Below the pieces are notes generated by a model that saw nothing but the letters and a program-made list of their open reading frames with translations, made no database searches and was not told the origin of the DNA. Below are positions 7,825 through 18,646 of a stretch of DNA of 35,055 nucleotides, piece by piece (the first letter of the stretch is position 1; every line of letters starts with the position of its first letter). Made by a program: the position numbers and the translations under genes. This DNA comes from Coriobacteriia bacterium (lineage in GTDB: Bacteria > Actinomycetota > Coriobacteriia > Anaerosomatales > SLCP01), in NCBI GenBank assembly GCA_030603745.1, contig JAUVXE010000018.1, forward strand, positions 1 to 35,055, in the 5' to 3' direction.

Positions 7825-7889
7825 GCTCCTCAGTCTACGCCCGCGTCCGGTTCCACGCACGCGTTTTGCGATAGCGATGTTAAGAATCG

Positions 7890-7918
7890 TTGCGTTTGCT
7901 TAGTCCAGTCTGTACTAT
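7890..7918 (+). promoter_or_regulatory. Promoter with 17-bp palindromic operator, copy A
   Basis: TTGCGT (7890-7895), a 17-nt spacer and TACTAT (7913-7918) form a plausible plus-strand promoter in an AT-richer patch. A 17-bp palindrome, TAGTCCAGTCTGTACTA (7901-7917), covers the spacer and most of the -10 box, so a bound regulator would block polymerase. The same palindrome occurs at 12780-12796 and, with one mismatch, at 18572-18588, both at heads of cytochrome operons. No protein gene follows on the plus strand; the transcript would end at the hairpin at 7965-8004. Confidence 0.6.
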
Positions 7919-7924
7919 GGTGTT

Positions 7925-8004
7925 CAGAACCACCCCGGTGGTTCCCGCTCTTCTTCATGTTTAAGGAGACAGCGCTGGGTGAGGGCCCGGCGCTGTCTCC
8001 TTTT
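7925..8004 (+). ncRNA. Candidate short transcript (small RNA) of about 80 nt
   Basis: Between the promoter at 7890-7918 and a strong intrinsic terminator ending in TTTT at 8001-8004 there is room for an RNA of about 80 nt. It would open with a hairpin, GAACCACC/GGTGGTTC (7927-7944), followed by an unpaired pyrimidine-rich stretch (7945-7957) and then the terminator stem. The stretch CTTCTTC (7950-7956) could pair with GAAGAAG just before an ATG of the 7-haem cytochrome, though 7-8 bp is short. The only ATG inside, at 7957, gives a 17-residue peptide running through the terminator with no Shine-Dalgarno. No known RNA family is recognised. Expression is unproven. Confidence 0.4.
7965..8004 (+). 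terminator. Intrinsic terminator
   Basis: A perfect 11-bp stem, GGAGACAGCGC (7965-7975) with GCGCTGTCTCC (7990-8000), closes a 14-nt loop and is followed by TTTT (8001-8004). The U-tract makes it directional on the plus strand; the minus-strand exit reads TTAAAC, which is weaker. It fits the end of the short transcript starting near 7925. Confidence 0.75.
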
Positions 8005-8039
8005 CTGTGAGGGTGGGCCAGAACTTCTCGTGAACGCAC

Positions 8040-8069
8040 GGCGGACCCCCTCGCGTGAGGGGGTCCGCC
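8040..8069 (-). terminator. Hairpin terminator of the 7-haem cytochrome operon
   Basis: GGCGGACCCCCTC (8040-8052) and GAGGGGGTCCGCC (8057-8069) form a perfect 13-bp stem with a 4-nt loop, about 43 nt after the cytochrome stop at 8113. There is no U-tract on either side, which is common for hairpin terminators in GC-rich actinobacteria. It separates the cytochrome transcript from the short plus-strand transcript and the UPF0178 gene. Confidence 0.65.
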
Positions 8070-8112
8070 TCTGAGCCTCGACACCGAGACGCCGGCGCCG
8101 ATCACCCGATCG

Positions 8113-9837
8113 CTACTTGTCGTAGCCGATCGAGCGCTTCTTCATCGGGCCGTGACAGGTCTTACAGACCTTGTCGGTGCCGTCTCCGGTGCTCGGCAGG
8201 AACGCCTCGCCCCAGATGTCGTAGCCGCGATCGCCGTCAGCGGTACCACCGAAGGTGGCCTTGTCGGCGTCGAGTGCGGCCTGACCCGGGTGGGTCGAGA
8301 TCCAGTTGTCGGCACGCTCGTTGAGGTTGCCGGCAGTGGTGTTGCCGCGGCGGTCACGGGCGTTCAGGAGCTTCTTGCCCTGGTCCGGACCGGAGTGCGG
8401 GAAGTCGGAGCGAGCAGCGACCGGTGCGCCCTTCATGTAGGCGTCGTCACGCTGGGCCCACGTCTGGGTCTTCACCGGCATGTCGTTCTTGTAGTAGTGG
8501 TACATCTGCGGCGTCACGTGGCACGAACCGCAGTCGGCACCGGTGAACAGGTTGGTGCCGTCAAGCGGCATGTCGTTGTTGTGGCACATGTAGCACTGGC
8601 TTCCTGCCTCGGCCACGGTGCCGACGCGCAGCATGCTCGGGACGGCGTGCGAGCGGTCGCCGAGCATGTTCTCGCCGGTACGGCCGCTACCCCACTCGGA
8701 ACCGACGTTCTGCTTGCCGGCGATGTTGAGGTTGTGGCAGTCGGCACACCAGAACGACAGCGAGGTCTCGTAGACAGGCATGTCCACGACCCGCTGTGCC
8801 TCGGTGTTGGAGGTCTCGAAGTACTTCCAGGTGGTGTAGCCGGTGGTGTTGGGGCTACCCGCACCGACCGTCTCGACGCTCAAGACGGTGTCCTCGATCG
8901 CCTTCAGGCGGATGTCGAGGGTGTTGCCGGTGTTGGGGTCGTCGGCCGGATCGTAGTAGCCAGGATTCACGCGGCTTTGCGCGCGCGGGAAACCGGAGAG
9001 GTCCGAGACGAGCTTGCCGTCGGAACCGATGGCGCCGGCCTCGACCTGGATGCCGCCGGAGGGGGCGTTGCGCAGGAGCTTGTAGCCCTGCGTGAGCTTG
9101 GTGCCCTCGGCGGGCAGGCCTGCCAGGCCAGACGACGCCGGCTGCCAGATCTGGCGCTGGGCGTTGTGGACCTGGTGGCAGCTCATGCAGCGCAGCGACT
9201 GCGGGCCGACACGGATCGTGCGGCCGCCGTGGACCACGTAGCGCATGAGCTGGTTGCGGTCCTCGAGGTAGCGACGCACGCTGATCTCGATGCTGCCACC
9301 GTCCTGGTTGAAGACCTCCTGGGTCTCGACCCACTGCCAGACGGAGCTGTCGGGGATGTCGGGACCGGAGCCGATGGTGTGACCGTTGGTCGAGTAGATG
9401 CCACCCGTGCCGTTGAAGTAGGCCTCGAGCTCGGAGTGGCGGCCCGCGCCGATGTGGCAGAAGTCACAGGCGTTGTCGGGGTTGTCGACACGCAGGAGTG
9501 CGAACGAACCGGTCGCGCGGTGGACGGCGTGACATACCTGACAGTTGTTCGATGTCGTCGCGTATCCACCGTGCGGGTTGGTCGTGTACACGCCCACGGC
9601 CGGGTCCCACGTCGCCGATGCCTCGAACGAGCGGTACGAGCCCTCGGTCTTGGGAGCCAGATCGTACGCGTCCTGATAGGTCCACTTGGACGCGCCGGTG
9701 GCGTCATAGGTGATCTCGCTGCCGGCGAACGCCGCACCCGCGGTTGCGAGGGCGAAGAGCGCCGTCAGAACGAAGACCAGAACAAGCTTCTTGCTCATCC
9801 TTCTTCCTTCCTGATGATGGTTGTGGGTATTGTGCAT
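8113..9837 (-). CDS. Secreted 7-haem c-type cytochrome
   Basis: This 574-residue exported cytochrome has seven CxxCH sites, in order CQVCH, CDFCH, CMSCH, CADCH, CYMCH, CGSCH and CKTCH. Two extend to CxxCHxxH (CHAVH, CHQVH). The mature part holds ten further histidines, enough for bis-His ligation of every haem. The signal peptide hydrophobic core (about residues 18-37) ends in AFA before GSE; no membrane anchor or lipobox follows, so it is probably released or wall-associated. An AAGGAGGT site 8 nt ahead of the ATG at 9837 favours that start, which adds a His-rich 13-residue n-region. The in-frame ATG at 9798 (MSKKLVLVF) is a good alternative. It is last in an operon with NHL, TPR and GerMN genes, and low haem density resembles filament-type cytochromes, though that is inference. 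Confidence 0.88.
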   Translation of the reverse strand: MHNTHNHHQEGRRMSKKLVLVFVLTALFALATAGAAFAGSEITYDATGASKWTYQDAYDLAPKTEGSYRSFEASATWDPAVGVYTTNPHGGYATTSNNCQVCHAVHRATGSFALLRVDNPDNACDFCHIGAGRHSELEAYFNGTGGIYSTNGHTIGSGPDIPDSSVWQWVETQEVFNQDGGSIEISVRRYLEDRNQLMRYVVHGGRTIRVGPQSLRCMSCHQVHNAQRQIWQPASSGLAGLPAEGTKLTQGYKLLRNAPSGGIQVEAGAIGSDGKLVSDLSGFPRAQSRVNPGYYDPADDPNTGNTLDIRLKAIEDTVLSVETVGAGSPNTTGYTTWKYFETSNTEAQRVVDMPVYETSLSFWCADCHNLNIAGKQNVGSEWGSGRTGENMLGDRSHAVPSMLRVGTVAEAGSQCYMCHNNDMPLDGTNLFTGADCGSCHVTPQMYHYYKNDMPVKTQTWAQRDDAYMKGAPVAARSDFPHSGPDQGKKLLNARDRRGNTTAGNLNERADNWISTHPGQAALDADKATFGGTADGDRGYDIWGEAFLPSTGDGTDKVCKTCHGPMKKRSIGYDK

Positions 9838-9867
9838 TTCCTCACACCTCCTTCCCTGCACGGATTT

Positions 9868-9896
9868 CCGTCAAGGCCGCCAGGCGGCCGTCACGG
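9868..9896 (-). other. Imperfect hairpin in the leader between NHL and cytochrome genes
   Basis: CCGT (9868-9871) and GGCCGC (9875-9880) pair with GCGGCC (9884-9889) and ACGG (9893-9896), with a 3-nt internal mismatch on each side and a 3-nt loop. It lies in the 85-nt gap upstream of the cytochrome start, just before its strong Shine-Dalgarno. It could be an mRNA processing or stability element that sets cytochrome output apart from the NHL protein. I compared it with the GEMM c-di-GMP/cGAMP riboswitch pattern and found no GCAAACC or GACGCAAAGCC core. Confidence 0.35.
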
Positions 9897-9922
9897 TTTC
9901 GCAAAGAGCCCGATGATCCCCC

Positions 9923-11368
9923 CTACGCGAGACCCGGCTCGGTGATCGCCTCTCCGTCCGGTCCATCCACTTCCAGCACCCCGAACCTCATCTCCCGCAC
10001 CTGTTCCAGGCGCGGGACGCCGGGGAACGCGACGGCCACCCTCCTCAGGCCGACCTTGCCGCGCAACCGCTCCGCGAGTCCCAGGAGCGGGTCCTCGTCC
10101 TCGGCGAGATCGTCGAACTCGACTTCGCGGACCGCATCCGCCAGGCCCTCGTGCGCCTCGAACAGGTCGACGACCGCCTCGGCCGTGCCCGCGGGCACCC
10201 AGATCCGGCGAGCCTGCTCAAGCAGGTCGGGCATCACGCCGAGCGAGTCCGCCCGGCGAAGGCCCGCAGTGTCGGCCACGACCCGGACCGGACGGCGCAG
10301 CAGCGCGAGCATGAGGAGCAGCAGCGCGGCCGGGACGACCCACGGCAGCGCACGCCGGGCGTAGATGCCGGGCGTGGGGGCGGGCGACGGGATGCGGAGG
10401 ATCTGCAGGCGGTCGTTGAAGGTGTCCGCCACCACGAACAGCTCGGGGGAGATCTCCGCGATGCTCGAGGGGTAGTAGAACTGGGCGTCCTGGCGGCCCC
10501 AGGTCCCGTAGGTCGCGACCTGCTCGCCCGCCTGGTTCAGGACCACGATCTCGCCGTTGAAGGCGTCGATCGCGTAGAGCAGTCCGTCGCTGCCGAGGGT
10601 GACGTCCGAGGGCAGGCCGTACGACCGGCTCTGGTCGCGTACCGCGGCGGACTCGTTCTCGATCGGGTCGCCGAGGGTCCAGATCGGCTCGCCCGAAGAC
10701 GTCAGCGCCTGGAAGCGGTAGTTGAGACTGTCCGCGAGGAAGATCGTGCCGTCGTCGGCCACGGCCATCCCCGTGGGGCGGTCGATGCGCCCGGGATCCG
10801 AGCCGAAGCCGGAGAGTTGCCCGGTCTGGTTGCCGTCGAGGTCGCCCACGAGGATGCCGTCCCGCGTGGTGATGAAGAGGCTGTCCCGGGAGAGCGCGAG
10901 TGTCTGGGGGTCGTCGACCTCGAACGAGCGAAGCACGCTCCCGTCCACGTTGTAGATCACCACGCGCGACGGGTCCTTCGAGGTCGTGTAGACGCGCCCG
11001 CGTGGATCGACGACGACGGCGCCGGGATAGCGCAGTGCGCCCTCCACGTTCGCCGGTCCGCCGACCGTGCCCTGGAAGACGCCGCTCGAATCGAAGATCA
11101 CGATGCGGTGCTTGAACGAGTCGGCCACGTAGATCCGGCCCGACCCGTCGACGAACACCTCGGTGGGCCGGTGCAGACGGTCGGGGCCGCTGCCGTAGAC
11201 CGATCTGATGTGCCGATACCCCTCGGTATCCGTACCGGAGGCCGACATGAGAGGCGCGTTGAGGCGCGCCGCGAGGAAGAACAGGGCGGCGGCGGCCACG
11301 AGGAGCAGGGCGAGCGGGATGAGCAGCAGCCGCGCCCGCTTCAGGTCGTTCTGTCCGTTCACGCTCAC
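9923..11368 (-). CDS. Membrane-anchored NHL-repeat beta-propeller protein
   Basis: This 481-residue protein has a transmembrane helix at about 13-33, an extracytoplasmic NHL propeller (about 45-330), a second helix (about 340-360) and a roughly 115-residue C-terminal region likely back in the cytoplasm. The repeats show the usual cadence, for example RPTEVFVDGSGRIYVADSF..RIVIFD, YPGAVVVDPRGRVY, RPTGMAVADDGTIFLADSLNYRFQ and LPSDVTLGSDGLLYAIDAFNGEIVVL. NHL proteins are recurrent neighbours of multihaem cytochrome genes and are thought to help cytochrome assembly or export; here it sits directly upstream of the 7-haem cytochrome. The C-terminal part (VVADTAGLRRADSLG) faintly recalls a PIN-like fold but lacks convincing acidic triads. 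The GTG at 11368 has AAGGG 8 nt upstream; a GTG at 11377 overlaps that site and is less likely. Confidence 0.85.
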   Translation of the reverse strand: MSVNGQNDLKRARLLLIPLALLLVAAAALFFLAARLNAPLMSASGTDTEGYRHIRSVYGSGPDRLHRPTEVFVDGSGRIYVADSFKHRIVIFDSSGVFQGTVGGPANVEGALRYPGAVVVDPRGRVYTTSKDPSRVVIYNVDGSVLRSFEVDDPQTLALSRDSLFITTRDGILVGDLDGNQTGQLSGFGSDPGRIDRPTGMAVADDGTIFLADSLNYRFQALTSSGEPIWTLGDPIENESAAVRDQSRSYGLPSDVTLGSDGLLYAIDAFNGEIVVLNQAGEQVATYGTWGRQDAQFYYPSSIAEISPELFVVADTFNDRLQILRIPSPAPTPGIYARRALPWVVPAALLLLMLALLRRPVRVVADTAGLRRADSLGVMPDLLEQARRIWVPAGTAEAVVDLFEAHEGLADAVREVEFDDLAEDEDPLLGLAERLRGKVGLRRVAVAFPGVPRLEQVREMRFGVLEVDGPDGEAITEPGLA

Positions 11369-11393
11369 GTGCAACACCCTTCGCTCAGTGGGT

Positions 11394-12116
11394 TCACCGG
11401 TCTCCGTGTCCGTCCACGTCCTTCGCGGCCTCGATCTCGCTCTCGCTCACGCCAAGCTCGCGGAGCGCGGCGAGGGCCGTCTCGTTCTCGATGTCGTATC
11501 CGAGGACCGCGAGGTACTCCTCGATCGCCCGGTCGGTGTTGCCGACCTTGCGGTGCGCGTCGGCCAGCGCGATGACCACATAGGTCGCCTCCGGCCCGCT
11601 CGCCAGGGCGCGCTCGAAGGCGTCGACCGCCTCCTCGTAGCGCCCGAGCTCCATCCGGACCTCGCCGAGGTCGTAGTAGACCTCGCGGTAGACGTCGCCG
11701 AGGGAACCGGGGATGCTCCCGGCCTTGCCGAAGGCCTTCTCGGCCCGGTCGAGGTCGCCGAGTCCTCGGTATGCCACGCCGAGCGCGTAGAACGCCTCGA
11801 CCGAGCGGCCGTCCAGCTCGACCGCCTGCTCGGCCTCGGAGTGGGCCTGGCGATAGTCACCGATCGTCGAGAGCGCCAGGCTGAGCTGCCAGCGCGCCTG
11901 CACGTTGGTCGGGTCCTGCTTGATGACCCGCAGGGCGTCGTCGATGATGCGCTCCTCGGCGCTCGCGGGCCCGGTCGGCTCGCTCGTGAGCGCGCCGACC
12001 ACGCGTACGCCGCCGAAGACCGTCACGGCGAACGCCGCCACGAGCGCGACGCGCACCGCCGTCAGCGCGAGCCCGGGGCCATATCCCGGCCGGGTGGTGA
12101 ACGTGAGCTTGCCCAT
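11394..12116 (-). CDS. TPR protein with N-terminal membrane anchor
   Basis: This 240-residue protein has a transmembrane helix at about 14-36, followed by an extracytoplasmic array of about four tetratricopeptide repeats (about 52-215): QARWQLSLALSTIGDYRQAHSEAEQAVEL, EAFYALGVAYRGLGDLDRAEKAF, VYYDLGEVRMELGRYEEAVDAFERAL and VVIALADAHRKVGNTDRAIEEYLAVL. TPRs mediate protein-protein contacts; a scaffold or assembly role for the cytochrome encoded two genes downstream is an inference from position. The ATG at 12116 shares one base with the TGA of the GerMN gene (TGATG), indicating coupled translation. The stop is 25 nt before the NHL gene start. Confidence 0.87.
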   Translation of the reverse strand: MGKLTFTTRPGYGPGLALTAVRVALVAAFAVTVFGGVRVVGALTSEPTGPASAEERIIDDALRVIKQDPTNVQARWQLSLALSTIGDYRQAHSEAEQAVELDGRSVEAFYALGVAYRGLGDLDRAEKAFGKAGSIPGSLGDVYREVYYDLGEVRMELGRYEEAVDAFERALASGPEATYVVIALADAHRKVGNTDRAIEEYLAVLGYDIENETALAALRELGVSESEIEAAKDVDGHGDR

Positions 12117-12715
12117 CAGTCGGTTCCCTCCCCGGCCTTGCGGGTCTCTCCGAGCGACCACGGCCCGTCGTCGAGGCGTACGTCGCCCCAGAGTGTCGCG
12201 ATGTCCTTGCCTTCGGCGGTGCCCTGCGTGCGGCCCTCCACCGTGAACCCGACCCGCTCGATGCCCGGGAACTGGGCCACGGACCGGATGATCGAGACGA
12301 GCGCGATCTGCTGGACCTGCTCGCTCTCGCCCTCGCCGAGGATCCCTGCCGAGAAGTCGACCGTCGCCAGACCGTCTTCGACCGTGACCCCGAGCACCTC
12401 CGCCCTCGGAAGCGTCACCTTCGCGCCGGACGGCAGCTCCTCGGTCGCGAACATGCGGTCGAGCACCTGCCTGAGCGCATCCGTGTCGTCGTCGAGCACC
12501 ACCCGCTCCTCGACGATCGTGTCGCCGGCGGGATAGAAGACCGACACCTCGGATGTGGTGGTGTTGATGAGCTCCTCCGCCGAGGGACCCTCGGTCTCGA
12601 GGATCGAGACCGACTCGGTGTCACGGGCGGCGCATCCGGTCGAGACGATGCCCAGAGCCAGGACGAGCCCCAGGGCGAGCGCCAGGGCCCGTGCAGTGTG
12701 TGAACGGATTCTCAA
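12116..12715 (-). CDS. GerMN-domain lipoprotein
   Basis: This 199-residue lipoprotein has a short basic start, a hydrophobic core (ALALALGLVLALGI) and the lipobox VSTGC. The mature part reads as a GerMN domain: EVSVFYPAGDTIVEERVVL, a helix with ALRQVLDRMF, LPSGAKVTLPRAEVLGVTVEDGLATVDFSAGI and QIALVSIIRSVAQFPGIERVGFTVEG. GerMN domains occur in GerM sporulation proteins and LpqB-type lipoproteins and probably bind wall or protein partners. The TTG at 12715 is preferred (AAGGA 11 nt upstream, normal signal-peptide n-region). An ATG at 12760 would lie only about 10 nt from the predicted transcription start with no usable Shine-Dalgarno. It is the first gene of the 7-haem cytochrome operon. Confidence 0.8.
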   Translation of the reverse strand: MRIRSHTARALALALGLVLALGIVSTGCAARDTESVSILETEGPSAEELINTTTSEVSVFYPAGDTIVEERVVLDDDTDALRQVLDRMFATEELPSGAKVTLPRAEVLGVTVEDGLATVDFSAGILGEGESEQVQQIALVSIIRSVAQFPGIERVGFTVEGRTQGTAEGKDIATLWGDVRLDDGPWSLGETRKAGEGTD

Positions 12716-12767
12716 GGCGGTTCGTGTCCTTCGCTTCGCTGGTTGACGAAACCTTAGCATCCTTAAC

Positions 12768-12804
12768 TTGTCTGTATACTAGTGCAGACTGTACTATTGC
12801 GCAA
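12768..12804. promoter_or_regulatory. Divergent promoters sharing the 17-bp palindromic operator, copy B
   Basis: The palindrome TAGTGCAGACTGTACTA (12780-12796) lies between divergent transcripts. For the minus-strand cytochrome operon, TTGCGC (12804-12799) and TAGTAT (12781-12776) are 17 nt apart. For the plus-strand lipoprotein gene, TTGTCT (12768-12773) and TACTAT (12792-12797) are 18 nt apart. Both promoters use the same DNA face around the operator, so one regulator could control both directions. The palindrome matches copy A at all 14 fixed dyad positions. Boxes were found by eye and are weaker evidence than the operator itself. Confidence 0.65.
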
Positions 12805-12874
12805 CAAGGTATGCTTTCCTTAAGGCCCTCCCCCGGGCCGCACGGACACTCGGATGCGCGACGAGGAGACCTCA

Positions 12875-13354
12875 ATGCGAACCGCTCACCGCAGGATGCT
12901 CGTACTCTGCCTGCTGGCACTCGTGCTGCTCGGCACCACGGTCGGCTGCACCCAGACCCGGGTGCGCTCCATGAGCGAATCGGTGAACGAGGGGGCCTCT
13001 CAGCGCTTCGCCGAGCTCGACCCCGACGAGCGCCAGCGGCTGGAGGAGTTCCTCGAAGGAGAGATCCAGACCGTCTACACCTCGGACACCGGGCTCGCGC
13101 GCGTCTACGGCCAGGTCGCGAACCTCGGCGAGGAGTCCTTCGATGCGGTACAGTTCGAGCTCGTGGCGGAGCTGAAGGCCTCGGCCCGCTCAGATGAGCA
13201 GACGCTGGTGGAGAGCTCGACGTTCAGCGAGTCGGTGGGCGACTTCGTGGTCGAGCGCCTCGGCCCCGGCGACATCGAGACCTTCGACGTGCAGACGTCG
13301 GTGCGCCCGGGAGACACCAAGGTGCTGCGTGTGCGTGTCAAGGGCGTGCGGTAG
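12875..13354 (+). CDS. Lipoprotein with FxLYD-like domain, divergent from the cytochrome operon
   Basis: This 159-residue lipoprotein starts MRTAHRR, then a hydrophobic core (LVLCLLALVLLGTT) and lipobox TVGC. The mature half opens with a charged helical stretch (RFAELDPDERQRLEEFLEGE). It then has a beta-rich segment, LARVYGQVANLGEESFDAVQFELVAEL through PGDIETFDV, which has the layout of FxLYD domains (a G-x-V-x-N strand, then a strand pair and a PGD-x-x-x-F turn). FxLYD domains are extracellular beta-sandwiches of uncertain function. GAGGAG at 12863-12868, 6 nt upstream, supports the ATG at 12875. Its promoter overlaps the copy B palindrome, so it belongs to the same predicted regulon as the cytochromes. 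Confidence 0.75.
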   Translation: MRTAHRRMLVLCLLALVLLGTTVGCTQTRVRSMSESVNEGASQRFAELDPDERQRLEEFLEGEIQTVYTSDTGLARVYGQVANLGEESFDAVQFELVAELKASARSDEQTLVESSTFSESVGDFVVERLGPGDIETFDVQTSVRPGDTKVLRVRVKGVR

Positions 13355-13435
13355 GGCCGACGTCGAGGCCGGGTGGGCCGATGCCGGTGCGGTCTGCCAG
13401 CCGGGCCGGCACAGGCCAGAGCCTGACGACCAGGC

Positions 13436-14170
13436 CTACCGCTCCTCCGCCGTCGCCGTGGGCCGCGAGACGGCCAGGCCGCGCAGCATCATCATGCAGC
13501 CAGCGGTGATGGTGATCGCGCCCATCATGCGGTGCATCTGCACCGGCAGCCCGAGCACCCTGACGACGTCCGGGTAGCCCGTGGCCACCCCTCCCGCGAG
13601 CACCGCGTAGGCCGCCATGCCGACGGCCGCCACGCTCGCCCCGGCGAAGCACCGCTCCAGGCCGAGGAGTCGAGAGCGCGCAGCGACCTTCCCGAACGCG
13701 ACCGCTGACAGCAGCCCGCCCGGCAGGCCGAGCAGGAGCCGCGCCGCGCGCTCGGCTCCCTGGACCGAGCCGAGGGAGGCCTCCTCGGCGAAGAGGGCCG
13801 CCAGGCCCGCGGCGAGCGCGACCGAGGCGATCAGGCCGAGGTAGACGAACGAGCGGAACGACGCGCGGTCCTCGATCAGCACCGACAGCCCGAACCAGAG
13901 GAGCGCGAGGAACGACAGCGCGAGCAGCGTGAGCCTCACCGCCGCGAGCGGGCCGGTGGGGTCCGCTGGGATCCCGGGCACCCGGAGGACGGCGTCGACG
14001 AGGTCCGAGAGCCCGTGGGTGACGCCGAACACGATGAGGATGCCGAGGTGGCTCGCGATGCCGAGCTTGGCCGTGCGCTCGATGCCCGCCCACAGCGCGC
14101 CCGCCATGACGAGGAACGCGCCCCCGTAGATCAGGAAGATCGCGATCATCATGGCGTCGCCGACGTTCAT
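13436..14170 (-). CDS. Polytopic membrane protein, about seven helices, unknown function
   Basis: This 244-residue, strongly hydrophobic protein has about seven predicted helices and short charged loops, with a polar tail (RPTATAEER). Histidines fall in or near helices: SHLGILIVFGVTHGLSDL (His43, His53) and VQMHRMMG near residue 215. The GVTHGLSDL stretch resembles the membrane sensor region found ahead of some bacterial histidine kinases. The histidines would also suit quinone or haem b binding; neither is shown. The ATG overlaps the last codons of the PadR-DUF4388 gene by 4 nt, so the two are translated together at the end of the 12/13-haem cytochrome operon. It faces the FxLYD lipoprotein gene; I see no clear terminator in the 81 nt between them. 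Confidence 0.65.
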   Translation of the reverse strand: MNVGDAMMIAIFLIYGGAFLVMAGALWAGIERTAKLGIASHLGILIVFGVTHGLSDLVDAVLRVPGIPADPTGPLAAVRLTLLALSFLALLWFGLSVLIEDRASFRSFVYLGLIASVALAAGLAALFAEEASLGSVQGAERAARLLLGLPGGLLSAVAFGKVAARSRLLGLERCFAGASVAAVGMAAYAVLAGGVATGYPDVVRVLGLPVQMHRMMGAITITAGCMMMLRGLAVSRPTATAEER

Positions 14171-15744
14171 CGGGCAGTCCCCCTCCTGCCCTCGCCCGCA
14201 AGCCGGGTCTCGAGCGCGCGCAGCGCGGGCTCCGGCAGTGCCGATGCCTTCACCAGCACCTCCGCCTGTGCCAGCGGGAGCTGAGAGGCGAACCCTCCGA
14301 GGACGTCGGTCACGAACACCTCGCCGAGGAGCGCCTCGACCGCGTCGAGGCGTCGCTCGATGAACTCGCACCCGGCCATGGCCACGGCACCCCTCGCGTA
14401 GGGGAAGTCACAAGCGGCCAGGTCGCTCCCGTCGAGCGGGAATCGGAGAGGCTGCTCGCCTCCCTGCGGCTCCGCGGTCGCCTCGGCCAGACGCGCAGCG
14501 GCACCCGTTCCCGCGAACAGCGTCACCGCGTCGGCCCAGCGCTGCGCGTAAGCGGCGATCGCGAGCACGAGGTCCCGCTTGTCGCGCCCGACGCGGACGA
14601 CCCAGCCGATCGCCCAGAGCGGGAAGGCGGTCCGAACGATGTGCGCCTCGTCCGCCCCGAGTCTCCGCGCGAGCTCAGGTACGGTCTTGACCCCGTCGAG
14701 GACGGCGAGGAGCGCGGTCTCGTCGTCGGTCAGGTCGAGCCGGAGGCTGTGGCTCCTCAACCCTTCATGCATGCCGAGGAGGGTCTGGGGGTCGGGGAGC
14801 AGGTGCTCGAACGCCGTCGAGGCGGCCACCCCCCGGCAGCCTTTGAGGATCACGAGGTCGAGCTCGTCATCGACCCGTGTGAAGCCGTCAGGGACCTCGT
14901 CGGCGGGCACGAACTCGTACTCGCCTGTCCGCGAGGTGAAACAGTGACGGAGGACGGCCTGCTCTTCGAGGCCGGGAGCGAGCGCCATGCCCTCGATGCG
15001 GCCACGTCGCATGGCCAGCTCAAGACCCACCCCGTTCGCCGAGACCCGGAGTACGCCGCTCCGTCCCGAGGAGGCGAGCGTCTTGAGCACCTCGTGGAGC
15101 ATGGTGTCGGCGAGCGATCCGGCAAGGAGTCCGATCTCATGGCCGAACTGCTCGGTCGAGAGCAGGTCGACGTAGTCCTTGAGGAACGTGAGATTCGCCT
15201 GCAGGATCGCGCGGCGCCTGCCGAGCACGAGGCGAAGCGCGGGGTCGGCCGCCTTCTCGGCCCCGGAGATCGAGGCATCGACCTCGGCCAGCGTGCGCTG
15301 CAGCTGCGCGACCCGCTCCTCCAACGCGTCCTGAGCGACCCCGCGATGGAGCCGGTTCGAATAGAAGAGGGCGACGTCGAACTCGGTCATGGCGTCCTCG
15401 GGCGAGCGGAGCGTCTGCTCGAGCGTCCCGAAGAACGCCTCCCGCCCGAGATCGGTCATCGAGTAGACGGAACGCTCGGGCTTGTCCGCGTGCCGCTCGA
15501 CATGCTTGGTGATCAGACCGTCGCGCTCGAGCCGCCCGAGCGCGTAGTAGACGGAGGTCCGGCCAAGCTTGGCCCACTCGCCGAGGCCCGGCCGCGAGAG
15601 CGTCTCCGAGAGCTCGTAGCCGTGCATCGGCCTGCCGATGAGCAGACCCATGAGCAGGAGGTCGTTGCGGGAGAGCGGCTTGACGGCCGCCCTGGCCTCC
15701 CGACCTGCCTGACCCGCTGCCCGGCTCTTCATCTCGCTCGACAT
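14167..15744 (-). CDS. PadR-family regulator fused to DUF4388
   Basis: This 525-residue protein begins with a PadR winged helix (about residues 22-100): LSRNDLLLMGLLIGRPMHGYEL, GRTSVYYALGRLERDGLI and YSMTDLGREAF. A helical PadR C-terminal dimerisation segment follows (about 105-195). Residues about 205-310 match DUF4388 (LADTMLHEVLKTLASSGRSGVLRVSANGVGLELAMRRGRIEGMAL), common in signalling proteins of deltaproteobacteria and relatives. A further winged-helix-like stretch (about 330-385, TDDETALLAVLDGVKTVPELARRLG) precedes an unassigned C-terminus. PadR proteins repress from short palindromes, so this is the best local candidate to bind TAGTNCAGNCTGNACTA. It is translated from within the cytochrome operon, 15 nt after the 13-haem gene, allowing autoregulation. 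A later ATG at 15732 is possible. Confidence 0.82.
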   Translation of the reverse strand: MSSEMKSRAAGQAGREARAAVKPLSRNDLLLMGLLIGRPMHGYELSETLSRPGLGEWAKLGRTSVYYALGRLERDGLITKHVERHADKPERSVYSMTDLGREAFFGTLEQTLRSPEDAMTEFDVALFYSNRLHRGVAQDALEERVAQLQRTLAEVDASISGAEKAADPALRLVLGRRRAILQANLTFLKDYVDLLSTEQFGHEIGLLAGSLADTMLHEVLKTLASSGRSGVLRVSANGVGLELAMRRGRIEGMALAPGLEEQAVLRHCFTSRTGEYEFVPADEVPDGFTRVDDELDLVILKGCRGVAASTAFEHLLPDPQTLLGMHEGLRSHSLRLDLTDDETALLAVLDGVKTVPELARRLGADEAHIVRTAFPLWAIGWVVRVGRDKRDLVLAIAAYAQRWADAVTLFAGTGAAARLAEATAEPQGGEQPLRFPLDGSDLAACDFPYARGAVAMAGCEFIERRLDAVEALLGEVFVTDVLGGFASQLPLAQAEVLVKASALPEPALRALETRLAGEGRRGTAR

Positions 15745-15759
15745 CCTCTCACCGCCGCC

Positions 15760-16824
15760 CTACCGCCGCGCACGGCGCGCGTCGCGCTGTGCGTGACAAG
15801 TATCGCACGCGGAGCGCGTGTGATGGCACCCGTAGCAGTTCTGTACGAACTCCTGCTCGGCGCCGTGGCAGGCGCGACACACAGGATGCGGCACGAACGT
15901 CCCGCGATACGCCGCGCCATGTTGCCTGACCCACTGCGAGGCGGGCGGATGCGGCGTGGGATACGAGTGGCACCGGTTGCAGAAGGAGCCCGCGTAGCCT
16001 CCGGTCGCGGCCCCGTGCGGGGCGGGAGGCGAGCCGTCCGGCGGGGCGTGACACTCGAAGCAGGCGTCCTGGTCGACGAACCCGTCGTAGAGGTGTCCCC
16101 GGACCCAGTCCGCCGGGTGCGGCATCTCGTACCCGCCGTGGCACGCCACGCACTCGCGCGCGAGCGCCGGCTCGTGACAACCGCCGCACGTGCCGTCGCC
16201 CGCCGCCACGACCGCCGCGTGGGGCCGCCTGTCCGAGACCACGTCGGACGGGTTGCCCGTATGGCAGAGCGAGCAGCGGGTCTCCTCCTCGCCGTCGCCG
16301 TGGCAGCGCATGCACTCCGACATCGTGTGCCGTGTCGCCGCGCGCGCCGTGTCCTGATGGCCCATGCCCGCGTGACAGCGGGAACACGCCACGCCCTGCT
16401 CCCAGAGGTGCGCATGCTCCACCCGGATCCCGCCGAGGACGGCGAACTCGGGCTCGAGCACGCTCCGGTGGCACCGGATGCAGGCCGACTCGTCGATCGG
16501 CCCGACCGACTCCCGGCTCGCGAGCTCGAACGAGTCGCCGACCGCCGCCATCCGCGCCCACGAGGCGCCGAAGCGGGCCGTACCCGTCACTCCGAGCGGG
16601 ACATGGCACGACACGCACTCGACCCCTTCATGAACGACGCTCACCTGGTCGAAGGTCCGGTGACAGGAAACGCAGTTCTGCGACGAGCCTGCCCACGAGC
16701 CGAAGCTCGCGGCGGCGACCACGAATGCACCGAGGACCAAGAAGGCCTTGAGCGCGGTCATGGCACTCTGCCGGCGCGACCAGGAGATCGTGCGCACACG
16801 TGCGACGCGAGTCCTCTCACTCAT
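15760..16824 (-). CDS. Membrane-anchored 13-haem c-type cytochrome
   Basis: This 354-residue protein has an uncleaved N-terminal helix (about residues 22-42) after a basic start, then thirteen CxxCH sites: CVSCH twice, CIRCH, CSRCH, CMRCH, CSLCH, CGGCH, CVACH, CFECH, CNRCH, CRACH, CYGCH and CDTCH. That is one haem per about 24 extracytoplasmic residues. The layout (anchor helix plus paired haem motifs) recalls NapC/NrfH-type and cytochrome c3-like quinol-linked electron carriers. Repeated CHxxxxxPHP...W units (CHGGYEMPHPADW, CHSYPTPHPPASQW) are shared with the 12-haem neighbour. The ATG lies inside the end of that gene (8-nt overlap). Its role as a relay from the membrane through the wall is inferred. 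Confidence 0.9.
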   Translation of the reverse strand: MSERTRVARVRTISWSRRQSAMTALKAFLVLGAFVVAAASFGSWAGSSQNCVSCHRTFDQVSVVHEGVECVSCHVPLGVTGTARFGASWARMAAVGDSFELASRESVGPIDESACIRCHRSVLEPEFAVLGGIRVEHAHLWEQGVACSRCHAGMGHQDTARAATRHTMSECMRCHGDGEEETRCSLCHTGNPSDVVSDRRPHAAVVAAGDGTCGGCHEPALARECVACHGGYEMPHPADWVRGHLYDGFVDQDACFECHAPPDGSPPAPHGAATGGYAGSFCNRCHSYPTPHPPASQWVRQHGAAYRGTFVPHPVCRACHGAEQEFVQNCYGCHHTRSACDTCHAQRDARRARR

Positions 16825-17776
16825 CGAGACCCGCCTTACGGCGCAGGCGCTCGACGCGCTCGGGGGTCAGCCCCGGATGTGCGTGGCGCGTGTGGCAGGC
16901 GTCGCACCCCGAGGAGGCGTGGCACGTGTCGCAGGTCTCGGCGCCGAGCGCCTCCACCTCGGCCGAGTGGACCGCCAGGAAGCCGTCGGGGTGCGGGATC
17001 TCGAGCCCATGACAGCCGGTGCAGAACTCCTCGGCGTGGCATGAGAGGCACTCGGCGGTGCGGGAGGCGACCCCGTGCTCGTTCATCCACTGGTCGCCGT
17101 GCGGGACGGGGACGCCGTGGCACGACTCGCAGCGGGCCGCAGTGTGGCAGGCGGTGCAGGTGCGCAGGTCGCCCGCGCCGTGGGAGGAGACCCACTCCGA
17201 GCCGTGCGTGATCGCGAAGGTCCCCGTACGCTGGCGTGCGTCGCGGGTCACCGTGCCCACGTGACACGTGCCGCAGTCCTGCGAGAGCGCCGAGACCACG
17301 TGACACCTGAGGCACTCGTCCATCGCGATCCCCGGGCGGTCGGCACTCCCGTGAGGTGAGGCGGCGTGGCAGTCGACGCAGGCGTAGCCGCTCCGGTGAG
17401 GGGCCGCGTGGCTCATCCGGATGCCCTCGGCCACGACGACCTCGTCGAGGACGTAGGCGTGGCACTCCAGACAGCGAGCCGAGGCGACGACGGGCCGGGG
17501 GCTGTACGGGACGCCGATCACGGCCGGCGCCATCGCCGCCATGCGGAACCGGAAGTCGACCACCTCGGCCATCGAGTCGCCGCGATGGCACGCGCGGCAC
17601 TCGATGCCGCCGTGCGCGCCGTCCTCGAGCGCGGTGATCGCAGTGGTGTGGCACGCGGAGCACGAGCGCTCCCATCCCGAGAGGGACGTGAACGCGAGCG
17701 TGGCCGCAACGAGCGCCACGAGGACCGCGGCGAGCACCGGGCCGATGCTCCTGATCAGCGCGTCGCTACTCCGCAC
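16817..17776 (-). CDS. Membrane-anchored 12-haem c-type cytochrome
   Basis: This 319-residue protein has an N-terminal anchor helix (about residues 9-30) and twelve CxxCH sites: CSACH, CRACH, CLECH, CVDCH, CLRCH, CGTCH, CTACH, CESCH, CLSCH, CTGCH, CDTCH and CDACH. Two CHGxxxPHxDxF/W units (CHGVPVPHGDQW, CHGLEIPHPDGF) match those of the 13-haem protein, so the two probably arose by duplication. The GTG start at 17776 overlaps the preceding gene by 11 nt and its own end overlaps the 13-haem gene by 8 nt, so the three are translated as a coupled block. A likely function is electron transfer between the quinone pool and outer carriers; no enzyme-type catalytic motif is seen. Confidence 0.9.
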   Translation of the reverse strand: MRSSDALIRSIGPVLAAVLVALVAATLAFTSLSGWERSCSACHTTAITALEDGAHGGIECRACHRGDSMAEVVDFRFRMAAMAPAVIGVPYSPRPVVASARCLECHAYVLDEVVVAEGIRMSHAAPHRSGYACVDCHAASPHGSADRPGIAMDECLRCHVVSALSQDCGTCHVGTVTRDARQRTGTFAITHGSEWVSSHGAGDLRTCTACHTAARCESCHGVPVPHGDQWMNEHGVASRTAECLSCHAEEFCTGCHGLEIPHPDGFLAVHSAEVEALGAETCDTCHASSGCDACHTRHAHPGLTPERVERLRRKAGLDE

Positions 17777-18506
17777 GGCTCACGGTCCCTCCTCCGCCGA
17801 GGACGAGTCCGGCGACCTCCTCGGCCGATGAACTCAAGAGCTCGAGAGGCCGTTGCGCCGGGACGACGTTGGTGAAGGTCGCCTCGACGGTGTAGACGAG
17901 ATCGCCCTCGGCCCAGCCGAGGTAGTAGATGCGCAGGTCGTCGGTGTGGCCGACCTCCGCCGGCACCCCGTCCACCGCCACAGTGGCACGGCCCGCGGGA
18001 TAGCGCTCGTCCGCCCGGCGGGCGGGCTCCACGGTCGCGTCGAGCGCGCTTGCGACGCGAGTGACCTGGACGTAGACGACGAGCGGGGTGTCGATCTTGC
18101 GCTCGTCGTCGATAGGGTTGAAGAAGGCCTCGACGCGCGAGCCCGCCGTTCCCGGAACGGGTTGCGGACCCTGGACGACCCAGCCGTCGGCCGCTCCCGG
18201 TATCACCGCGATGGAAAGCTCATCCTGCTCGTCCGGGCCGGTGTCGATCTCGAGCAGCGCGTCGGATGCGGCGGAGTCACGCGTGGCGAGGAGCGCTCGC
18301 GCGGCCGCCGCGAGCTCCTCGCGCTCGTCCCCCGACTCGATGAAGAGGGTGGTCACCCAGAGCAGGCCGGCGAGGGCGAGCACGCCCACGGCGAACGCGC
18401 GCCGCGAAGGGGTGCGCAGGCGAAAGCGGCCCCGGTGCATGCGCAACCGCGGACCGGTATCTCCGGAGCCGTTCCTGGTTCCGAACGTCTGGCCGAACGG
18501 CCGCAT
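17766..18506 (-). CDS. Single-pass anchored extracytoplasmic protein, first gene of the 12/13-haem operon
   Basis: This protein has up to 246 residues, a basic N-terminus, one helix (about residues 36-54, AFAVGVLALAGLLWVTTLF) and an extracytoplasmic domain of about 190 residues containing ERKIDTPLVVYVQVTRVASALDA, VAVDGVPAEVGHT and YYLGWAEGDLVYTVEATFTNVVP. No cysteine pair or haem motif is present, and I do not recognise the family. The ATG at 18506 lacks a clear Shine-Dalgarno; an ATG at 18440 (MHRGRFRLR) is also possible. It ends 11 nt inside the 12-haem gene. It begins 66 nt downstream of the copy C palindrome, so it probably heads the operon. Confidence 0.7.
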   Translation of the reverse strand: MRPFGQTFGTRNGSGDTGPRLRMHRGRFRLRTPSRRAFAVGVLALAGLLWVTTLFIESGDEREELAAAARALLATRDSAASDALLEIDTGPDEQDELSIAVIPGAADGWVVQGPQPVPGTAGSRVEAFFNPIDDERKIDTPLVVYVQVTRVASALDATVEPARRADERYPAGRATVAVDGVPAEVGHTDDLRIYYLGWAEGDLVYTVEATFTNVVPAQRPLELLSSSAEEVAGLVLGGGGTVSRAE

Positions 18507-18571
18507 CGAGCAACACCGCCGAGATCCCTGTGGGAGGCCGAGCCGGGATCCCGTGCGGGAACACCCGGTCG

Positions 18572-18588
18572 TAGTCCAGTCCGTACTA
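18572..18588 (-). promoter_or_regulatory. 17-bp palindromic operator, copy C
   Basis: TAGTCCAGTCCGTACTA matches the dyad TAGTNCAGNCTGNACTA at 13 of 14 fixed positions (C for T in the right CTG). It lies in the AT-richer strip just upstream of the minus-strand operon beginning at 18506. Promoter boxes here are less convincing than at copies A and B. On the minus strand only a weak TACGAC -10-like box is visible behind the repeat of TTAAG motifs (18590-18603). Confidence 0.6.
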
Positions 18589-18646
18589 ACTTAAGCACCT
18601 TAATCTTGCGTGCGACAGGGACGCCCGTCAAGCGGCGGACGGCGGA

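Follow-up and report, generated by a model that had tools for sequence, protein, structure and literature searches.

Positions 7890-8004 of the sequence studied here, between two minus-strand genes of a Coriobacteriia bacterium, raise the question of whether this interval encodes a small RNA that would be controlled together with a neighbouring cytochrome operon and act upon its message, as a first-pass annotation had suggested. The window, i.e. the whole stretch of DNA analysed, covers 35,055 nt of contig JAUVXE010000018.1 (GCA_030603745.1), from a genome of 2.14 Mb referred to below as G000. The comparison set consisted of 298 genomes of the class, including G012, which belongs to another family than G000 and carries the same regulator and cytochrome cluster, and G028, which is only 73% complete.

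Promoter and operator of the candidate RNA

A plus-strand promoter overlapped by a palindrome had been claimed for this interval and is present at 7890-7918. Its -35 element (TTGCGT, 7890-7895, plus strand) and its -10 element (TACTAT, 7913-7918, plus strand) are separated by a 17-nt spacer, most of which is occupied by the palindrome TAGTCCAGTCTGTACTA (7901-7917), a candidate site for a PadR-DUF4388 regulator that also overlaps the -10 element. The match to the sigma-70 consensus is limited to 7 of 12 positions, and a generic sigma-70 scan did not report this promoter, so that the case for it is one of comparison and not of consensus. The composite promoter-operator pattern (TTGCGN6TAGTNCN5GNACTAT) has exactly three exact matches in the 298 genomes, one in G000 and two in G012, and is thus confined to the two genomes harbouring both the cluster and the PadR gene. 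The same pattern reversed, used as a control, has no match in G000 or G012 (a few scattered matches at up to one mismatch are found in other genomes). With only three exact matches in 298 genomes, the promoter-operator does not result from chance. Of the two G012 matches, one is the promoter of a lipoprotein gene and the other (C91:780; contig C91 is JACRBU010000140, from a Coriobacteriales groundwater MAG) lies between the 5S rRNA gene and nifU; all three keep one and the same spacing of -35 element, -10 element and palindrome.

The only other gene adjoining the operator, DUF188, has its own -10 element (TAGACT or TACACT, about 10 nt before its start), which is kept in relatives devoid of the cytochrome island and lies about 65 bp from the operator at 7901. 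This rules out the operator as a DUF188 control site and indicates that it belongs to the plus-strand promoter.

A candidate PadR-DUF4388 regulon

Allowing up to two mismatches, the palindrome TAGTNCAGNCTGNACTA has three copies in the 2.14-Mb genome, all inside a 10.7-kb cytochrome island and located at the candidate RNA and at or beside island promoters. Besides the copy at 7901, one (12780-12796) lies between the minus-strand GerMN-TPR-NHL-cytochrome operon and a divergent plus-strand lipoprotein gene, and one (18572-18588) is upstream of 17766-18506, the first gene in the minus-strand series of cytochrome and PadR genes. DUF3048, DUF188 and pknB are neighbours in relatives of the family, and as DUF188 and DUF3048 adjoin there, the 7.87-18.64 kb segment (7870-18640) is an inserted cytochrome/PadR island, with the three operators located at its transcription units.

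This island encodes the candidate regulator (14167-15744, minus strand), a PadR helix-turn-helix (PF03551, 2.3e-13) fused to DUF4388. Only three other genomes of the 298 (G012, G038 and G028) have full-length relatives of it, and a search of 84,980 species genomes found full-length homologues solely in G012 and G028, with no further copy of the RNA. Two tyrosines, Y19 and Y42, are invariant in the four orthologues and correspond, as matched by eye, to the signature tyrosines of PadR that contact DNA (PMC6457526). Palindromes of the TAGTNC-N5-GNACTA type also accompany the other PadR loci: there are five in the G012 cluster (two with one mismatch), two before the cytochrome gene of G028 (one with one mismatch) and one, with one mismatch, before the G038 homologue of the 17766 gene, and in G037 the start of a distant PadR gene is immediately preceded by two palindromes with one mismatch each. 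From this distribution and the conserved tyrosines, we infer that the palindrome is the binding site of the island PadR-DUF4388, in which case the operator would define a candidate regulon of this protein. Since that operator covers the RNA promoter, the RNA and the cytochrome genes would be switched on or off jointly. The proposed co-regulation of an operator-controlled RNA with the cytochrome operon holds at the level of sequence: the local regulon of three palindromes, the island PadR and a second unit in another family (see below) make a PadR-controlled small RNA beside the cytochrome island well supported.

Among the papers listed by our literature searches, none links PadR and DUF4388, and there is no relevant one on PadR and small RNAs with cytochromes. 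Three further observations were made in passing. An exact operator is found on a separate contig of G012 (C34; L090 3673-3689), in a promoter region flanked by two other genes of multi-haem cytochrome type, and the PadR regulon may therefore reach beyond the cluster in this genome. The cytochrome leader of G028 (L113 8786-8885) contains, after two operators, a hairpin with a perfect 10-bp stem. At the end of the G000 contig (32538-35029), a pair of similar ORFs on the minus strand, with Hint/intein-like sequence, resembles, by eye, polymorphic toxin cassettes.

The predicted transcript and its counterpart in another family

Downstream of the promoter, we infer a plus-strand RNA of about 80 nt, from 7925 to 8004, which RNAfold predicts to fold with -46.4 kcal/mol (z -7.0 versus dinucleotide shuffles). 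Its 5' hairpin (7927-7944), recovered both by RNAfold and as inverted-repeat arms, has a 7-bp stem, GAACCACC/GGTGGTTC, and a C-rich CCCG loop. The stretch predicted to be unpaired between this hairpin and the next reads CCCGCUCUUCUUCAUGUUU and includes the linker UCUUCUUC (7949-7956), a candidate seed; the CTTCTTC that had been noticed at 7950-7956 is indeed found there. Counting both strands, the window has this 8-mer at no other place. The second hairpin (7963-8004) is a predicted terminator, and although a terminator ending in TTTT (8001-8004) had been correctly recognized, its stem is longer than the 11 bp first ascribed to it, the predicted fold giving 18 bp around a loop of 4 nt (the 17-nt arms, 7963-7979 and 7986-8002, are 94% complementary). 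At -36.4 kcal/mol it ranks first in stability among the 35,016 segments of 40 nt tested on the two strands of the 35-kb window. No Rfam family, mycobacterial B11/6C included, matches the candidate RNA above its gathering threshold, and relaxed thresholds yielded no credible match either.

The unit contains no credible ORF, in keeping with what was first reported. It does include short frames starting at ATG 7957 (17 aa) and ATG 7917 (15 aa), which could suggest a very short peptide or a leader, but neither is preceded by a Shine-Dalgarno sequence, the 17-aa frame traverses the terminator stem, the 15-aa frame begins before the predicted 5' end of the RNA, and no peptide is common to the G000 and G012 units; a coding function is hence highly improbable.

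The G012 unit at C91:780, which has no evident ORF downstream of its promoter either, follows the same order: the promoter-operator and a first hairpin, then ACA, UCUUCUUCUU and a second hairpin (-33.4 kcal/mol), which no other segment of its contig exceeds in stability. The linker motif UCUUCUUC is found there in the equivalent position and nowhere else on either strand of the contig, an occurrence expected in 0.045% of dinucleotide shuffles of the segment. No T-run follows the G012 hairpin, which is therefore less convincing as a terminator. The two units thus share a layout without any BLAST-level similarity, and searching the RNA against 60 relatives by BLAST returned only short chance matches. 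Conservation of the hairpins and of CTTCTTC is seen in the layout and in UCUUCUUC of G012 and is absent or unclear in G028 and G038: clear copies number only two (G000 and G012), and neither G028 (73% complete) nor G038, both PadR-bearing, has one. The weak candidate of G038 (C22:107538; L151 538-655) consists of a one-mismatch palindrome in a non-coding gap before tRNA-Val, a CCUCCU and a hairpin that may be the terminator of the tRNA. We did not retain it as a third copy, its fold z being only -1.8 and a -35 element being absent.

These comparisons also bear on whether the operator could be a bare site (a decoy or an architectural element), or serve DUF188, with the hairpins being merely the terminators of neighbouring genes. 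The weakness of the promoter relative to the sigma-70 consensus would fit such an explanation, as would the location of the G012 hairpin, without T-run, after an rRNA operon. It is however difficult to reconcile with the identical register of the promoter and palindrome elements in both units and in the G012 lipoprotein promoter, with the separate conserved promoter of DUF188, with the T-run of the 7963-8004 hairpin being on the plus strand, and with the 5S-nifU neighbourhood of G038, which is present without the RNA unit and its hairpin. We regard this explanation as quite unlikely.

Slightly less so, but unlikely as well, is an RNA that is under PadR control and acts locally, either with its transcription and hairpin halting or opposing the convergent mRNA of the cytochrome, or by partnering antisense read-through of that operon. 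In G000 the unit does converge on the 3' end of the cytochrome gene (8113), and read-through would be its exact antisense; a perfect 13-bp inverted repeat (8040-8069) past the cytochrome stop, without T-run on either strand, is probably the 3' end hairpin of that mRNA. Against this, the G012 unit lies between the 5S rRNA gene and nifU, upstream of the cluster and in tandem with it, so that convergence is not conserved.

Candidate targets and mode of action

The pairing partner first put forward for the RNA was a GAAGAAG said to adjoin the start of the 7-haem cytochrome gene near 9798. The start of the gene (8113-9837, minus strand) is however another: it begins at 9837, preceded by the Shine-Dalgarno sequence GGAAGGAGG, a start common to G012 and G028, and the GAAGAAG (9800-9806, minus sense) falls within the reading frame. 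No solved structure related by sequence to this cytochrome was found. Using RNAduplex, the G000 linker scores -14.1 with the cytochrome start region, a value that lies no more than about one standard deviation from the mean of random window segments (-11.1, sd 3.3); there are start regions with better values, such as padR (-16.6). The specific CTTCTTC-GAAGAAG pairing is therefore not supported, the motif being in frame and the duplex energy ordinary: many random segments pair as well with the G000 linker as do the start regions of the cluster. The G012 linker is weakly favourable to the cytochrome, its start region (-17.4) and that of the TPR gene (-17.2) being the best two of 11, beyond the fifth percentile (-16.2) of random segments (mean -10.2, sd 3.4). 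About 50 nt ahead of the start of NHL, 11 nt are perfectly complementary to this linker as well, but they belong to a lysine-rich tail, in which such matches easily arise by chance. An RNA acting specifically on the cytochrome start region, a special case of the explanation we prefer, has this G012 ranking and the presence of GAAGAAG in its favour, and the in-frame position of that motif and the G000 energy against it; it is possible but doubtful. Near-perfect complements of a 13-mer (ATGAAGAAGAGCG-like sites) were considered as targets too and discarded: there are 17 in the genome, by appearance mostly antisense of coding sequence, and none is at a plausible gene start. As any strong Shine-Dalgarno sequence pairs with such a linker, the mode of action is weakly supported and a particular target hardly so.

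The explanation we prefer, and consider fairly probable on the comparative evidence, is that of a genuine, separately transcribed, PadR-controlled non-coding RNA of about 80 nt, most likely acting in trans through pairing with Shine-Dalgarno sequences. PadR would repress the island and the RNA jointly, and the signal sensed by PadR would release both. The RNA would then present its exposed UCUUCUUC linker between the 5' hairpin and the very stable terminator hairpin, and this pyrimidine stretch could pair with purine-rich Shine-Dalgarno/start regions, lowering the translation of its targets. These may be other genes, the RNA serving as a switch, or the island, the RNA serving as a brake; messages of the cytochrome operon are possibly among them, in which case the RNA would brake their induction.

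The candidate would thereby join a known kind, the regulator-controlled small RNAs, trans action being a candidate property. One of the closest known systems is IsrR of Staphylococcus, a Fur-controlled small RNA which, like the repressor-controlled FsrA, uses C-rich stretches against Shine-Dalgarno sequences (PMC9410917). Shared features are a repressor operator at the promoter, hairpins, a single-stranded pyrimidine stretch, an intrinsic terminator and a tie to anaerobic respiration genes, whereas the operator is here PadR-like and not Fur, the predicted length about 80 nt and the linker UCUUCUUC instead of C-runs. The resemblance concerns the mode of action only, for an RNA known here from its sequence, there being no sign of homology to IsrR or FsrA and the regulator being different. 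The iron-sparing RNAs FsrA, RyhB and PrrF are likewise repressor-controlled and in the same regulon as genes for metal- or haem-proteins, an analogy only, as no regulator or chaperone is known to be in common. On the protein side, the local regulons of BsPadR and LftR also involve a PadR helix-turn-helix with signature tyrosines and a partly palindromic operator at its own promoter; they differ from the present case in its C-terminal DUF4388 fusion, its cytochrome-island regulon and the use of one operator to drive a non-coding RNA.

The small RNAs of these Coriobacteriia, like the control of their cytochromes after transcription, seem to have received little attention in the literature. A candidate RNA tied to a regulator and retained in two families, where the layout is shared but hardly any of the sequence, offers a specific, testable example. 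It is rather speculative that it represents an undescribed class of small RNA under a PadR-DUF4388 one-component regulator, limiting the synthesis of multi-haem cytochromes via their Shine-Dalgarno sequences. If so, extracellular or periplasmic electron transfer in Coriobacteriia would be subject to an incoherent feed-forward loop.
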